DNA of 64,000 bases from Microbacterium testaceum StLB037. Lineage in GTDB: Bacteria; Actinomycetota; Actinomycetes; Actinomycetales; Microbacteriaceae. The stretch lies in NCBI RefSeq assembly GCF_900104345.1, contig NZ_FNJN01000001.1:496001-560000 (forward strand), written 5' to 3'. The notes beneath the pieces are model-generated. The model was not told where the DNA came from. It saw only the letters and a list, made by a program, of their open reading frames with translations, and did no database searches. The translations under genes and the position numbers were made by a program. Below, piece after piece: positions 56,449-64,000 of this stretch (its first letter is position 1; each line of letters starts with the position of its first letter).

Positions 56449-56763
56449 ATGTCGCTCGGCGGAAACAGGGGAGACACGATGCGGCGGGAGGTCATCGTGC
56501 CGCCCGCCCTTTACCTGCCCCTGGTGAGTGATCCCGAGGGGCGCGGCCAACTGGCTGTCGTTCAGAAGCTCGTCGACGGTCGGCGCGGGTTGCTCGCGTA
56601 CACGGCGCTGGACAGGCTCGCAGACGCATGCGGGCGCGAACAACCGTGGATGCTGCTGATGACCTCGGAGCTCGATCGCATTCGGCAGATGCAGCCCTTC
56701 GACGTCGTCGCATTCGACCTCGACATACCCCCTCAGTCACGTCGGGGAGGGCGACTCGGATGA
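56449..56763 (+). CDS. SAV_915/SseB-like small protein at the head of an ESX-like operon
   Basis: A 104-residue protein. The pattern LVDGRRGLLAYTALDRLADA and LDRIRQMQPFDVVAFDLDIP resembles SAV_915/SseB-type proteins, which are frequent beside ESX substrate genes in actinobacteria. ATG 56449 has GGGGGA upstream; ATG 56479 with GGGGAG is the alternative. Its stop overlaps the next start (ATGA). Confidence 0.6.
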   Translation: MSLGGNRGDTMRREVIVPPALYLPLVSDPEGRGQLAVVQKLVDGRRGLLAYTALDRLADACGREQPWMLLMTSELDRIRQMQPFDVVAFDLDIPPQSRRGGRLG

Positions 56764-57056
56764 GTGACGCGATCTACGTCGACCGCGACAACATGGTGCG
56801 GCGGATGGGTCTCGTCGTCGACGAAGTCGACCGTCTCGACGCGGCGCTGGCCTCCCTTCCGCCCGCGGCCGACGGCGGGGCCGCTTCCGCGCTCATCGGC
56901 TTTATCGCCGGCGCTGCGGCGGAGGCGGCAAATGAGTACGCCGGGGCGGTGCGCCTCGTCGGTGCGGTGACGGAGAGCGTGCTCGACGACGTGCAGGCGA
57001 CGGAGGATCAAATGCAGAGCGAGATCTCACGACTCGAAGAGGGGCTCGCGGACTGA
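56760..57056 (+). CDS. Small helical ESX-like protein
   Basis: A 98-residue protein of two helices with a central small-residue segment (GAASALIGFIAGAAAEAANE), acidic overall, ending in EISRLEEGLAD. It has the size and shape of ESX/WXG100 partners but lacks a WXG. It is coupled to both neighbours by overlapping stop/start codons. Confidence 0.65.
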   Translation: MSDAIYVDRDNMVRRMGLVVDEVDRLDAALASLPPAADGGAASALIGFIAGAAAEAANEYAGAVRLVGAVTESVLDDVQATEDQMQSEISRLEEGLAD

Positions 57057-58225
57057 TGCCGATCGACGCGAGGATTCCCGGCGACCCGGCGAGCGTGCGC
57101 GCCGTCGCGGAGTGGCTCGAGCGCGTGAAAGAGGCGTACACGGGCGCCGACCTCGAGCTGACCTACCTCTGGGGTGACTCGAACAACTACTGGACGGGCG
57201 AAGCGGGAACCGCGTGGAGGTCGGTGGTCGGCGACATCCGCAACCGAGCGGATGGGGTGTCAAGCTACCTCAGCGATGCGGCAGAGGTGTTCCGCGCATA
57301 CTCCGCTCGACTAGAGCGCGCGCAAGAAGACGTCGCCACGCTCCGCATTCAAGCGGATGCCGTCGGCCTCGACGTCGTTGGAACGACCGTGCTGCCGCCG
57401 ACGACGTCCCTGTCGTACTGCCCGGGTCCCGGCGCGCCGGACGCCGACCTCGAGGCGTATGACCAGTACGTCTCGCTGATCGCGAGCTACAACGACCTCG
57501 GCGCGCAGATCGGCACGATGACCGGCGAACTCGACGCGTGGGTCGGGGAACACATGGCTCCGCTCATCGCTCGTGTCGAGGGCTTGCAGAAGCTCTCCGG
57601 CACGGTGTCGGCCATCGCGGCCAAGGGCAACGAATCCCTCGCGACATCCGTGCTCGACGGGTACGAGAGCTTCTACGATCAGACGCTGAGCACCTGGCGC
57701 AAAGACCACGATTCTCTCCAGTCCGCGGCGGAAACCTTCCGCGACCAGCTCCGGTCCGGTAACCCGGCACTGCGGGCGGCGGCCGAGGCGGCGGACCCTC
57801 ACGGAATGCGAGCGGGGGTGGAGGAGCTGGCGGAGCAGATCGGCCGTGTGTCGCGCGTGACCCGCGTGCTCCCCATCGCCGGCAACGTGATCGACGTAGT
57901 CTCCCTCGCCGCGGATGTCGCAGAGGGCGGTTCGCTCAGCTCCGGCGTCGCGGAGATCGCGGGAGGCATGGCCGGCGGTGCGGGAGGTGCGGCGGCCGGT
58001 GGGGCTGCGGCAGCCGCCCTCGGAAGTAATCCGGTCGGGTGGGTCATCGGCGGGACGGTCATCGGCGGCCTAGCCATCGGAGCCGGAGCAAGGTGGCTGT
58101 GGGAGGCCGCGGTCCCCCTCGACTCACGCGAAACCGTCGACGACTTCTTCACCGGGCGTCAGCCGCGGTTGGAAGGATATGTTCCTCCGTCCCCCCGATC
58201 GCAGCCGAATCAAGGAGTGAACTGA
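57056..58225 (+). CDS. WXG100-domain ESX substrate with glycine-rich C-terminal region
   Basis: A 389-residue protein. The N-terminus is WXG100-like (residues about 10-100: YLWGDSNNYWTGEAGTAWRS is a WTG turn between helices). Long helices follow, then a hydrophobic glycine/alanine-rich stretch (about 300-350). No toxin domain is recognised; the C-terminus is short and proline-rich. It could be a channel-forming or carrier substrate, or a toxin type not known to me. No immunity gene of known kind follows; the next gene is the membrane paralogue. Confidence 0.7.
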   Translation: MPIDARIPGDPASVRAVAEWLERVKEAYTGADLELTYLWGDSNNYWTGEAGTAWRSVVGDIRNRADGVSSYLSDAAEVFRAYSARLERAQEDVATLRIQADAVGLDVVGTTVLPPTTSLSYCPGPGAPDADLEAYDQYVSLIASYNDLGAQIGTMTGELDAWVGEHMAPLIARVEGLQKLSGTVSAIAAKGNESLATSVLDGYESFYDQTLSTWRKDHDSLQSAAETFRDQLRSGNPALRAAAEAADPHGMRAGVEELAEQIGRVSRVTRVLPIAGNVIDVVSLAADVAEGGSLSSGVAEIAGGMAGGAGGAAAGGAAAAALGSNPVGWVIGGTVIGGLAIGAGARWLWEAAVPLDSRETVDDFFTGRQPRLEGYVPPSPRSQPNQGVN

Positions 58226-58227
58226 CT

Positions 58228-59007
58228 GTGGCCATCAGCACGACGTCTCCCCGACTTCCGTCCCCCGACCCGCGGATTCCCGTCTTCCCGAACGGCCGGC
58301 GCCCCACCTGGCTCGTCGCCGTCATAGTTCTGTTCGCCGTGCTGCCCGTGCTCATGGCCGTGGCCGATGACCGACTCGGGCTGCGCTTGGTGATGGGAGC
58401 GCTGACCCTCACCATCCTCGGGGCCGCGGCCTGCCTGCACGTGCTTTTCGGCACGATCCAGGAACGCCTCCTACGCATCGACCAGTCGGCATCCGGGATC
58501 TGGTTCCGTCCGGCGCCGGCCGCGACCGCGGTGCCGTTCGTGCTCGGCGGCCTGCTGCTGCTACCCGCGGTCGCGCAGATCGTGGTCGACATCGCGGACC
58601 TGCCGACGATGCCGTCGTTCCTGCTCACGCGCGCGCCGTATGCCCTCGGACTGCTCGGCGTCGGCGTGATCGTGATGAATGCGGTGCGTCTGCGTGAGCC
58701 GGCGGGCTTGCACGTGACGGCCGAGGGGCTCAGGGGTATCCGCGGTCGTGGTCGGGTCGACTGGGCATGGCACGAACTCGCCGAGGTGGGGGTCGGGGCC
58801 GGCCCTGTCGCGAAACTGCATCTCATCGCCGACGGTTCCGGTCCGCGAGTCGAGGCGCCCATGCTCGCGCTCGGATCCGATCCGAATCAGGTCGCCACCG
58901 TGGTGCGATATTTCCGCGAGGTGCCCTCAGCTCGCGCCACCCTCCAGGGTCCCGGAACCGTCGCTTTGCGCGGCGTCGACGACGCGCTCCGCGCTCGTGA
59001 GGGCTGA
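58228..59007 (+). CDS. Membrane protein of the three-member paralogous family (copy 3)
   Basis: A 259-residue protein with four membrane helices. It shares with copy 1 the ADDRLGLRLVM block, LPAVAQ before a TMPSFLLTR segment, GLRGIRG, W-WHE and LALGSDPNQVATVVRYF. GTG 58228 has AAGGAG upstream and follows the ESX substrate stop by 2 bases, so the two are coupled. An immunity or anchoring role for the ESX substrate is plausible: polymorphic toxins with membrane targets often have membrane immunity proteins. That is inference. Confidence 0.75.
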   Translation: MAISTTSPRLPSPDPRIPVFPNGRRPTWLVAVIVLFAVLPVLMAVADDRLGLRLVMGALTLTILGAAACLHVLFGTIQERLLRIDQSASGIWFRPAPAATAVPFVLGGLLLLPAVAQIVVDIADLPTMPSFLLTRAPYALGLLGVGVIVMNAVRLREPAGLHVTAEGLRGIRGRGRVDWAWHELAEVGVGAGPVAKLHLIADGSGPRVEAPMLALGSDPNQVATVVRYFREVPSARATLQGPGTVALRGVDDALRAREG

Positions 59008-59101
59008 GCACGCCTCATAACCGCCGTGATCCGCACATCCTCAGCCGGGGACACCCCCGTGACGACGGAGGTTGCGTAACCCGTTGAGGGTGCTCGACGG
59101 A

Positions 59102-62100
59102 TCAGCCCGGAACGCCCACCTTCGCCTTCGCCCACGAGCGCCCGCGGGTGTCCTTGAGGATGTCGTACTCGACGTCGACGTGCGGCTCGATCGCGCTGTA
59201 CTTGTCGTTCGGTGCACCGATGACGAGCTGGAAGCCGAGGCCGCGCCAGGCGCCGATCGCGCGCTTGGTGAAGTGCGCGTCGGCCTTGATGAGCGCCTCG
59301 TCGAGGAAGACGGGGGCGTAGCGCGGGCGCTCCGATCCGGCGTCCCCGAGCTGGTAGCGCAGGGCCGCACCCACGATGAAGGCGATGAGCTCCTGCGATT
59401 CGCCGCCCGACTTCTCGCCGATGTGGTCGTAGAGCGCCACGTGCTCGCCCGTGTCGGCGCGGAAGCGCTCGGCGCTGACCCGCACGTGGTTGCGCACGTC
59501 GACGAGGTCGGCGAAGTCGGGGGCGGTGGGGCGGATGCGGTTGATCAACCGCGCCATGCGCCCGTACACGCCCTCGCGCTCCTCGTCTGTCGAGGCCGCG
59601 TCGATCGCCGCGCGAACGTCGCGCAGCTCGCGGCGGAAGCGCTTGCGCACCTCCGACTGGCTCTCGCGCGGAACGATCTGGAGGCGGTGGTCGTCGTCGT
59701 AGAACGGCAGGTCCTGCATGATGTCGTTGATCGGGGCGATGCGCTCGCGGATCTCGCGCAGGGCGCGCGTGAGCGCCGAGTCGAGGCTCGTGAGGTCGTT
59801 GCCCGACAGGCGCAGCAGCGAGTCGCGCCATTCCGCTTCGAGTTCGTGCAGGCCGCTGGCCTCGAGCTCGCTGAGGATCCGCTCGAAGTCGCCGAGCGCC
59901 TCATCGGGGTCGGCGAGCAGGTTGGGGCTCGGCCACCGGTCGGTGAACGCGGTCATCGTGCGGCGCAGGCTCTCGCGCTGGTCGCTCCACGTCTCCTGGG
60001 TCGCACGCTGTTCCTCGAGCAGACGCTTCGACGCCGACTCGAGGGCGGCGTCGAACCGCGCGAGCCGCTGCGAGGGCGAGACGTCATCGCCGGAGGGCGC
60101 CACGAACAGCCCGTCGAGGTACGCGACCTCGTCGGGGGTGAGCGTCATCTCGCGGTCCTCGGCCCGTTCGAGCAGGATCTGAGCGGCATCCACGTCGTCG
60201 GTGATCTCGGCCCAGCGGGCGGCGAGGGTCTGCTGCTCGGTCTTGGCTCCGCCGATCTCCTCGCGCAGGCGCGCGACGCGGGCCTTCGCGCCCGAGATCT
60301 GCTCCTGCAGCTCGGCGATGCGGGGGTTTCCCGCGGTGACCTCGACGACGGTCTCGTTCCAGCGGTCGAGATCGCGTTCGACGGATGCCACGTCGACCTG
60401 GTCCCACGACAGGTCCGCGATCTTCTCGAGGGCGCCGCGCCGGTCGTCGAAGGCGTCGAGGGCGGCGGCGGCCTCGTCGACCGCGGCCTTGGCGGCGGTG
60501 AGGTCGCGCCGGACGGTGACGATCTGCTCGCCGAGCTCGGTGAGGCGCACGCGGGACGAGAAACCGAGGATGCTCTGCCGCGCCGAGCCGCCGTGGGCGC
60601 CGCGGGCGCCCTGACTCGTCTGGCCCGAGATCGTGAGCGCCATGCGGTGCTGTGAGAGCTCCGACGCGGCATCCACGCAGACGAACGCGAACTGCTGCTC
60701 GAGGCGGTCCTGCAGCCAGCCGGTGAAGGGCGAGGAACGGAACTCCAGGCGCCCGGGCAGGGTCGCCGGGTCCAGCGCCCCGCGCTCGGGAAGGTCGGTA
60801 GGAACACCCTCGAATCGGAGGCGCTCCGAGAGTCGCACGCTGTCGATCGCGGCGCGGAACGCAGAGAGGTGCGCGGCATCGACGAGCAGCGTCGTCGCGA
60901 ATCCGCCCAGCGCAAGGGTGAACGCCCCGCGCCACGGTTCGAATTCGGTGCGCACGTCGACGAGCTCGGCGACGAAGGGCAGCTCGGCGGCGGTGAGCCC
61001 CGCGGCCTCGGCCAGCGCCTCGCGCGCCTCGTGCAGGCGCGGGGGGATGTTGTCGTCGCGGGTCTGCGTGCGTCGGTGCTCGACCTCGAGGGCGGCGAGC
61101 TGCTGGCGCAGGTCGGTGTGCCGGCTGCTGGCAGCGACGAAGGCGTCGCGCACCGCGCTCTTGGCACCCGTGTCGGCGAGGGTGCGCCGCGCTTCGGCGA
61201 CGAGCGCGGTGAACTGCTTCTCGGTGGCGACCTCGACCGAGAGCACGGCGAGGGCCGCTTCGAACCGTTCGCGGTCGCGCTGCATGCCCGCGAGGCGCCG
61301 CTCGAGGGTCCGCAGTTCGCGCTGCGCCGCGTCGAGCCGGTCGCCGCCCGCCGCGCGCAGCACGTCGCCCAGTGCCTCGCGTTCGGCCTCTGCCGCGTCG
61401 GCGAGGGCCTGGCGTTCGCGCACGAGCGCGTCGGTGGCGTGCGTGCGGTCGCGCAGCTCGGCCTCGACCGCTTCGAGCAGGTCGACCCGTCGCTGCGCGC
61501 GCCAGAGCGAGGCGCGCGACTCGGGGTCGCCGAAGCGCCCGAGCGCGTCGATCAGGCGCAGGCGCTCGGCGGCGTCGTCGATGCGCGTCTTCATGCCGCG
61601 GATCGGTTGCAGGGCCCGCACCTGCTGGCGGGCCTCGAGCATGCGCGTGCGCGTCGACTCGAGCCCGTCGAAGTGCGTGACGACCGCGTCGGCCACGGCG
61701 AGCGTCTCGGGCTCTTCGAGCACCATGCGCTTGTAGAGGTCGTCGACGGTGGTGATCTGCTGACCGGCCTGGATGCGCGCGAGCAGGCTCATCGCCTTCG
61801 AGCCCGCTCCCGCCGCGCCGATGCCGAGCACGGCGTGCAGCCGCGCCGAGAACTCGCGGTCGGTCGCGAGGGTGTCGAGGCCCGCCGCCCGCACGGCCGA
61901 GTCGGAAAGGTGGCTCTGCGCCGCGCGCTCGAGCTGGCGCAGGTCGAACGCCCCGTGCACGGTCGCGCGCACCTTGACGGCGTCGTCGAGCGTGCGGGCG
62001 GCGGCGGGGAAGTACCAGGCCCGCACCGCCGTGAAGCGCGCGCCGTCGTGGTCGGCCCAGGTCATGCCGATCGCGGTCCACGTGTCGACCCCGTCGCCGC

Positions 62101-62449
62101 GCAGCACCCGCACTTTGGTGCCCTCGTCGGTGCGCGACTCGTCGAGCTTGCCGCGGCCGTAGGAGAGGATGTTGCGCTGCTCCTGGCCGCGCGGGCGACC
62201 CACGACCGCGCCGTTCGAGGCGCCGTTGAAGGGGGTCGTGTGCGGCATCATCAGTGCGACGTACGCGTCCATGAGCGTGGACTTGCCCGAGCCCGATCCG
62301 CCGCACAGGAGCGTCGCGGTCGGCGCGAAGCGCACGCGGTGCGTGCCGTCGTATCCGCCCCAGTTGATCAGCTGCAGGTCTTCGGCGACCCACTGCTGCC
62401 CGCGGGAGGCCGCGGGGATGAGCCCGAACAGCGTCTCGAGCATGGTCAT
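59102..62449 (-). CDS. jetC: Wadjet JetC / MksB-type SMC-like ATPase
   Basis: An 1115-residue SMC-like protein. Walker A is [14 protein letters not shown] (about 47-60). Long coiled-coil arms cover about residues 240-460 and 640-900 around a hinge-like domain. The signature [15 protein letters not shown] is near residue 1010 and Walker [14 protein letters not shown] near 1047. In Wadjet, JetABC loops plasmid DNA by extrusion and JetD cuts it. It overlaps jetB by 4 bases. The next gene downstream converges from the other strand, so JetD is absent here. Confidence 0.92.
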
Positions 62450-63174
62450 GCGCGCTCCTCCTCGAGGATTCCGGATGCCACGGCCTCGGCGTCATCGATC
62501 AGGGGCGCCGGGGTGTCGGCATCCCGTGTCTGCTCCTCCAACCACCGCTGCAGATCGCGCAGCACCTCGGCGCTGAGCACGATCTCGATGAGCGGCCCGA
62601 TGCGGTAGCGCCCCTCGGACTCCTCTTCGATGATGCCCTCGCGGTCGAGGCGCGCGATCGCGGTGCGGACGGCCCGCTGCTGGCTCGCGCGGGTGCCGTC
62701 GGTCTCGCTGAAGTAAGTGAGCACGGTCTGCTCGACCTCTTCGACGTCGACGCGGGCGGATGCCGTGCCGGCGGTCGTCTCGCGCTGGAACACCGTGCGC
62801 AGGTAGACGAGCACGAGCGTCTCGGCGCGCGAGTACGCCTCGTCCTTCAACAGGATCGGCACGTCGACGTCGTCGCTGCGCACCTGCTCCTTGTAGGCGA
62901 CGCCGCGGGCGTGGTCGACGACGAGGCGCACGAAGAGGTCGTTCAGGCGCGACTCGATCATCTGCTGGTGCTCGAGCAGCAGCTTCCACTCGGCGGGCGA
63001 GTTGTCGGCCACGAGGAAGCGCCGCTGAAGGATCCGCACCAGCACGCGCCGCACGTCGGCGTCGAGCGTGCCGCGGTCGCCCGCGAACAGCGCGTCGGGG
63101 TCGTTCTCCATGGCCACCGGGGCGATGAAGGCGGGGGTGTCCGTGTCAGGGGCGGACGGGTCGATGTCAGTCAT
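62446..63174 (-). CDS. jetB: Wadjet JetB / MksE-type (DUF4194) subunit
   Basis: A 242-residue winged-helix protein of the DUF4194 family: [35 protein letters not shown] and [20 protein letters not shown]. It is the kite-like subunit that bridges kleisin and the SMC heads. Start ATG 63174 (or 63180) overlaps the jetA stop. Acidic N-terminal and C-terminal tails. Confidence 0.92.
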
Positions 63175-64000
63175 CGGCATCCGTTTCTGTGGCAGTCGGG
63201 GGTTCCGCGTCCGAGACGCGAGAGGGCGCGGCGATGACCGCGCCGAAGGCGAAGCGCCGGGTGGTGCCGTCGGGACGGACGGCCTCGACGATCGAGACGT
63301 CGTCGGTCTCGACCAGGCCCTCGCGGTGGACGATCTCGAGCAGGCCGACGAGGTCGACCGGGCGCCGGGTCTCGGCATCCGCTCCGGCGAAGGCCGTCGC
63401 GAGGTCGAAGCCCCCGGGAAGCGTGGCCACGTACGCCTCGAGTTCGGCGTAGTGCGGGCCGCCCCACGCGCGCGTGTCGGCGTCGACGAACTCGACGTCG
63501 GAGTCTCCGGATGCCAACGGCGCCGGCGCCCCGGGAGGACGCACGTCGCCGAGCGAGCGGCGCAGGTGCCCGATGTCGGCGAGGGGCAGGGTGCGCACCG
63601 GTTCGACGCGACCGGGGGAGCGGGTCTGGCTCCAGCGGTGCAGACCCGCCATGACCGAGCGCAGCAGATCGTCGACCTGCCGGTCGCGGATCGGGTCGTG
63701 CGTGCGCACCTGCGCGGTGATGACGTGCGAGGCGCGTCGCTGGGCGGTGAGCACCTCCTGCACGCCGGCCTCGACGCGCCTGGCGATCGCGTCGAGCTCT
63801 CCGCGCTGCTCGGGGGTCATCAGGCGCGAGAACGGCTGGGTGAGCACGGCGTGCAGCTGGTCGGTGAGGTCGTCGATGTTCTCGGGGTCGCCGATCAGGC
63901 GCAGCGCTCCCTGGAACGCCCGGCCCTCGGGGGTCGCCTGCATCACCTGGCGACCGCGCTCGAGGTACTCGCGCAGCACATCGCCGGTGGGGCGCACATC
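63167..64000 (-). CDS. jetA: Wadjet JetA / MksF-type (DUF3375) kleisin, N-terminus outside window
   Basis: The C-terminal 277 residues or so of a DUF3375 kleisin. Visible blocks are [40 protein letters not shown] and a [18 protein letters not shown] region near the C-terminus. The family is normally about 480-500 residues, so roughly 200 are cut off by the window edge. The stop overlaps the jetB start. Whatever lies upstream, including a possible relocated jetD, cannot be seen. Confidence 0.9.

Follow-up and report, generated by a model that had tools for sequence, protein, structure and literature searches.

A Wadjet Type I Operon Without Its Nuclease Gene in Microbacterium testaceum, a Candidate Accessory Chromosomal Loop Extruder

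Wadjet type I systems comprise four proteins (JetABCD) and are named MksBEFG in Corynebacterium glutamicum and EptABCD in Mycobacterium smegmatis. In Microbacterium testaceum StLB037, the stretch of 64,000 nucleotides analysed here (contig NZ_FNJN01000001.1, positions 496,001 to 560,000; hereafter, the window) ends with three genes of such a system, all on the minus strand and all open over their full length. The kleisin gene jetA (DUF3375) occupies positions 63167..64000 and extends past the window to approximately 64672 (L001:6168-7673), encoding 501 residues from a GTG start. The gene of the KITE subunit, jetB (DUF4194, about 244 residues), lies at 62446..63180 and overlaps jetA upstream and jetC downstream, the latter by 4 bases, while jetC, at 59102..62449, encodes a 1115-residue structural maintenance of chromosomes (SMC) ATPase. 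These overlaps indicate a tight operon, in the order A-B-C. Between the jetC stop and the end, at 59007, of a converging open reading frame (ORF), there are exactly 94 bases (59008..59101). It is in this gap that jetD starts in the relatives that bear it, and the initial annotation was right in describing JetD as missing from its usual site.

The assignment of the three proteins relies on profile matches. JetC matches the PADLOC model JetC1 over its full length (1709 bits), JetB matches JetB1 (374 bits) and PF13835 (DUF4194, 133 bits), and JetA, completed with the sequence past 64000, matches JetA1 (717 bits) and, over nearly its full length, PF11855 (DUF3375, 365 bits). JetB also reaches 34 bits against Pfam MksE (cut-off 27), and the Pfam MukB N-terminal model gives 21 bits, below its cut-off of 23. 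Chains of solved Wadjet structures are matched by all three: 8dk2 and 8as8 by JetC (using phmmer), 8dk1 and 8as8 by JetB, and 8q72, 8as8, and 8dk1 by JetA. The JetC motifs are intact, with the Walker A at residue 50, the signature at 1013, and the Walker B at 1046, and the closest relative of this JetC is 97% identical. Judged by sequence, the genes classify as a type I JetA/DUF3375, a JetB/DUF4194, and a JetC SMC ATPase. The likeness to Wadjet type I, thus, extends to the protein families, the gene order, the gene overlaps, and the ATPase motifs, and the difference lies in the operon and the genome being without a recognisable JetD/MksG nuclease.

The search for this nuclease covered both sides of the operon and the whole genome. 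The converging ORF (58039..59007, plus strand, up to 322 residues) does not match JetD; it has no Pfam match at E 0.01, and a single weak NCBIfam match, below cut-off. On the other side, the sequence past 64000 completes jetA, and the first gene upstream, 43 bases away and on the same (minus) strand, is a mannosyltransferase-like gene with PMT_2 and YkcB_C domains (approximately 64716-66692), and beyond it lie genes for an amino acid permease and for a class III aminotransferase; none of the genes read there is JetD. The genome (G000) consists of 12 contigs, in which neither the JetD_C (PF09983) nor the DUF3322 (PF11795) profile finds a match, C. glutamicum serving as the positive control and matching in both. 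A further JetD profile, built from 13 sequences, including five from the JetC clade of the window, finds no match in this genome at E up to 1. The initial annotation had allowed for a JetD ahead of jetA or at another genomic location; the upstream genes and the three profile searches rule out both. It is, thus, established that no recognisable JetD is present, either just upstream or in the rest of the genome.

Relatives, which the initial annotation had proposed checking for JetD loss, give a similar picture. Among 78 related loci, the 74 with at least 1.5 kb past jetC were counted, and 72 of them have no JetD next to jetC; the other two (L031, L069) have jetD matches in two reading frames. 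The four loci with shorter flanks, which were set aside, show no JetD in the flank available. In L090, L134, and L135, which bear JetD, the match begins right behind jetC or overlaps its end. At the genus level, a JetC of the window type (at least 60% identity, whole or in pieces) is present in 58 of 149 Microbacterium genomes. No JetD profile match is found at E ≤ 0.001 in 48 of these 58; in six (G025, G026, G028, G055, G064, G065), a full JetD adjoins a different, distant JetC; two (G101, G042) have JetD beside the window-type JetC; and two (G052, G102) contain JetD fragments only.

A JetD that is present in the window genome and was missed, being too diverged or lying in an assembly gap, is extremely improbable. 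Sensitivity could fall, as divergence in the window clade is 1.5 to 4.1 times as large for JetD as for JetC, and a 33-residue JetD_C scrap in one genome (G106) does escape the 13-sequence profile. Nevertheless, this profile, like the two Pfam models negative in a genome with a tool-stated completeness of 100%, detects JetDs in genomes represented in it and also full JetDs in five genomes outside it (G026, G028, G055, G064, G065), and the 48 genomes without a match form most of those with this JetC.

Beyond the genus, JetD-less JetABC is common. A family sample of 249 genomes yielded 59 full-length JetA loci, of which 22 have a JetD within 8 kb, the distance used for counting, and 37 do not. 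Thirty of these 37 were read besides the window's own, and the six others come from the profile survey, their loci not having been fetched. In one case (G322), the genome is fragmented, the JetA contig is short, and a JetD is found on another contig, and one genome (G349) has no JetC match; leaving both out, 35 of the 37 remain. A class sample (394 genomes, a few of them shared with the family sample) gave 66 full-length JetA loci, of which 39 are without an adjacent JetD; 34 of these 39 come from outside the family of the window. All of the 18 JetD-less class loci that were read match JetA, JetB, and JetC, with no JetD (in L163, JetC is in two frames), and JetD was confirmed in both of the JetD-bearing loci read. 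The 21 other JetD-less loci were not fetched in the class survey; three of them (G000, G043, G226) were read separately, and the remainder rest on Pfam profiles alone, except for G076, which was also included in the 13-sequence profile search. In two other genera, JetA occurs in 7/7 and 5/5 genomes, and the loci read in three genomes of each are all JetABC without JetD (6/6). Across these 12 genomes, the JetD profile finds no full-length JetD, only a C-terminal fragment in G276 and a weak match (E 0.03) in G321.

Two additional JetD-less lineages were observed. One (L094-L097) is a second JetABC lineage within Microbacterium, with 37-40% identity to the window JetC. The other (L104-L107 and L128), from the same family, is a deep lineage that is also without the JetB N-terminal pattern [FWY]xGDxG, and constitutes the most derived nuclease-free form seen.

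The history of jetD can be approached through a tree built from 127 JetC rows, in 17 of which JetD adjoins JetC (L079-L089 were left out, as were L100 and L101, which are short; the identical pairs L023/L132 and L029/L127 were retained). The window clade comprises 93 rows, among which seven with JetD are scattered. If JetD is ancestral, this distribution takes 15 losses, or nine after collapsing forks with less than 99% support. The seven JetDs form one group (support 100/99) that matches the JetC grouping, and for this reason repeated loss is preferred over gain. Presence and absence alternate at close range: L123 has JetD and L122 does not, L090 has it and L022 does not, and L031 carries a frame-split copy while L030 has none. 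In these three pairs, a long DNA match runs from near the jetA start to just past the jetC stop, with shorter flank matches in some. Closely related JetABC operons with approximately 87-92% DNA identity occur within one family with jetD, with frame-split jetD, and without jetD. JetD distances in the window clade exceed those of JetC by a median ratio of 2.14 (range 1.54-4.13; 15 pairs from six members, L031 omitted), in comparison with 0.98 and 1.16 in two other clades (six pairs each), which fits relaxed constraint on JetD before its loss. On sequence grounds, an ancestral nuclease lost many times would fit the window clade, although parsimony does not demand it, and the absence at the window locus is most likely a loss in its lineage.

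The three remaining genes are under purifying selection. For 19 pairs in which both members are JetD-less, the ratio of nonsynonymous to synonymous substitution rates (dN/dS) is 0.05-0.14 for JetC, 0.03-0.14 for JetA, and 0.04-0.31 for JetB. Across the 127 JetC rows of the motif alignment, of which 17 have JetD, 126 show the Walker A lysine and one has a gap there; the signature serine and glycine are conserved in all 127, as are the Walker B residues. These observations bear on the possibility of a former defence operon in decay, deprived of its effector and drifting towards loss, which is very unlikely. Operon remnants do exist in the genus, two of the seven remaining jetDs of the window clade (L031, L069) are split between frames, and a few JetD-less operons are broken; against this stand the low dN/dS values, the unbroken ATPase residues, and window genes that are open and full length in a clade whose JetC divergence reaches 30% and more. 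A pseudogene status of the window operon is disfavoured on the same grounds.

The remnants themselves comprise a JetA fragment adjoining a JetD fragment (L098:4077-4702) and a truncated JetC with a truncated JetD (L100:5341-8117). At another locus (L091:4554-9110), a JetC in two reading frames is followed by a full-length JetD; the frame change is either genuine damage or an artefact of sequencing.

An unrelated nuclease encoded elsewhere could also serve JetABC in trans. A replacement family of this kind would be invisible to JetD profiles, and the loose JetB pattern [FWY]xGDxG is conserved in most JetD-less loci (104/111), as in all of the scored JetD-bearing ones (16/16). It is missing from seven loci, namely the five of the deep lineage (L104-L107, L128) and the pair L023 and L132, which represent a single genome whose jetB is split. 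Taking the pattern as a mark of JetD contact was rejected, given that its occurrence in the window clade does not follow that of JetD and that it could not be mapped onto the reported IFDR motif. The genes next to JetABC, the part of the genome examined in this respect, contain no widely recurring candidate: across 62 loci, the neighbours fall into 44 clusters, of which the largest covers four loci and 15 span more than one genus, and a different fourth gene replacing JetD beside JetABC was discarded, as no cluster is general among these loci. Many separate losses, if real, would, moreover, each need the same substitute. Overall, a nuclease acting in trans is unlikely.

Several genera retain their own neighbours around the locus. 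Within the M. testaceum group, comparison with 16 relatives shows at least one flank in common with the window in 14, and both flanks in nine. Different JetC lineages with common downstream neighbours were also observed: L077 and L108-L110 share an ammonium transporter and others, and L136 and L141 share clusters c41 and c42, which hints at preferred insertion sites in two genera. Only 14 of 72,556 plasmid records match JetC, all at less than 60% identity; a plasmid-borne origin was rejected, with no plasmid record carrying the window clade. On the far side of the 94-base gap, the region 56628-59007 (plus strand) contains, in succession, a small ORF, a 389-residue protein, and a further ORF. 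The 389-residue protein is rich in Gly/Ala at its C-terminus and weakly resembles WXG100 proteins at its N-terminus (NCBIfam TIGR03930, E 0.00036, below cut-off), and the three ORFs look, from their sequences, like a type VII secretion target and its partners.

With no recognisable cutter gene in the window genome, and a similar state in many relatives, the motor's present job most likely needs no cutting. As characterised Wadjet and MukBEF complexes suggest, JetABC would assemble as an ATP-driven dimer of dimers, load on DNA, and extrude loops with ATP. In complete systems, JetD cuts once a small circle has been processed; without JetD, the cycle would have no cutting end and, as no recognisable JetD/MksG is encoded, circular DNA could not be cut by the known route. 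The most likely use of such a complex would be accessory chromosome organisation beside Smc-ScpAB, of which ScpA, the component searched, is present at C2:491737-492399. A nuclease-free Wadjet type I motor working as an accessory chromosomal loop extruder, in the manner of MksBEF, is, therefore, the reading that we favour, at somewhat better than even confidence.

A close parallel is the MksBEF of Pseudomonas aeruginosa, which likewise comprises a kleisin, a KITE subunit, and an SMC protein of the same group, encoded in one operon without MksG/JetD and found beside Smc-ScpAB. Unlike it, the window JetB scores 133 bits with DUF4194 versus 34 with MksE, and close relatives retain jetD, so that a loss within type I Wadjet is indicated, these two observations standing in place of a joint tree with MksBEF. 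E. coli MukBEF is also a complex of the Wadjet group without MksG/JetD, and it folds the chromosome, as described in part of PMC7617805. Its sequence is, however, very distant, as the MukB N-terminal score reflects, and it is described as replacing Smc-ScpAB (in a passage of PMC10586767), whereas the window genome has ScpA. The same review proposes that MksBEF, and perhaps MukBEF, derived from defence complexes after nuclease loss. The initial annotation had suggested that the complex could still extrude loops without cutting and pointed to a chromosome-organising role. What stands is the persistence of the JetABC core without cutting, given the purifying selection, the intact ATPase motifs, the presence of JetA throughout two genera, and the 72 JetD-less loci among 74. 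The chromosomal role is an inference by analogy with P. aeruginosa MksBEF.

Another possibility is immunity without a nuclease. JetABC would then fully extrude small circular or incoming DNA and compact, silence, or mis-segregate it without cutting, in the way that the eukaryotic Smc5/6 acts on viral and episomal DNA. The recognition part of the system, JetABC, is intact, the distribution in the genus is patchy, with closely related JetABC units of the window clade in different neighbourhoods, and Smc5/6 is named as acting against viral DNA in a passage of the review PMC10586767. On the other hand, suppression of plasmid transformation in Bacillus subtilis required all four subunits, according to the part of that review dealing with this experiment, and the occurrence of JetA in every genome of two genera, at sites kept within genera, is more housekeeping-like. 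Immunity of this type is, thus, a real but clearly minor prospect.

Several observations weigh against the chromosomal loop extruder, or against the loss history behind it. The window clade is patchy in Microbacterium (58 of 149 genomes), unlike an essential condensin. Some sites common to several genera hold different JetC lineages, which is more usual for accessory modules, and among close relatives in the window clade the similarity ends near the jetA start and just past jetC, again accessory-like. Regarding history, the branching within the seven-JetD group is mostly unresolved, equal-cost parsimony gives the window clade six changes from a JetD-less ancestor, so that gains are formally cheaper, and a slower JetC may partly explain the higher JetD/JetC ratio. 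Regarding constraint, JetC dN/dS between L122 (without JetD) and L123 (with JetD) is 0.26 over 811 codons, above the other pairs, and some JetD-less operons are damaged, with a frame-split jetB in L023/L132 (one genome), a jetC in two frames in L163, and a stop within the jetC of G036. If [FWY]xGDxG relates to the IFDR contact, although the mapping failed, a JetD-like partner could exist. Lastly, in C. glutamicum, deletion of mksB had no phenotype in growth or segregation and an effect on plasmids alone, in the account of this mutant in PMC7083940; in this species, MksBEFG acts on plasmids with MksG as the nuclease, as described in parts of PMC7083940 and PMC10123090. The absence of a chromosomal phenotype for this nuclease-bearing complex is one of the limits on confidence in a chromosomal role.

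Wadjet-group complexes without JetD are already known, and parts of PMC10512200 and PMC4255302 provided background. What is new is the frequency and stability of this state in Actinobacteria; among the open-access PMC titles and abstracts listed in searches on JetD-less Wadjet or MksBEF and on Microbacterium Wadjet, none deals with repeated JetD loss in Actinobacteria. Nuclease loss is visible here at close range, within one family and in part in named Microbacterium strains, and the function of a non-cutting Wadjet motor becomes directly testable in these relatives. Counts of defence systems that rely on JetA, JetB, or JetC alone may overstate the anti-plasmid immunity of Actinobacteria. A broader and rather doubtful proposal is that the Actinobacterial Wadjet motor has repeatedly shed its nuclease to become a stable three-gene module, with which at least some lineages would still police extrachromosomal DNA by looping it and silencing or expelling it. 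If true, such non-cutting policing would give bacteria a natural equivalent of restriction by Smc5/6.

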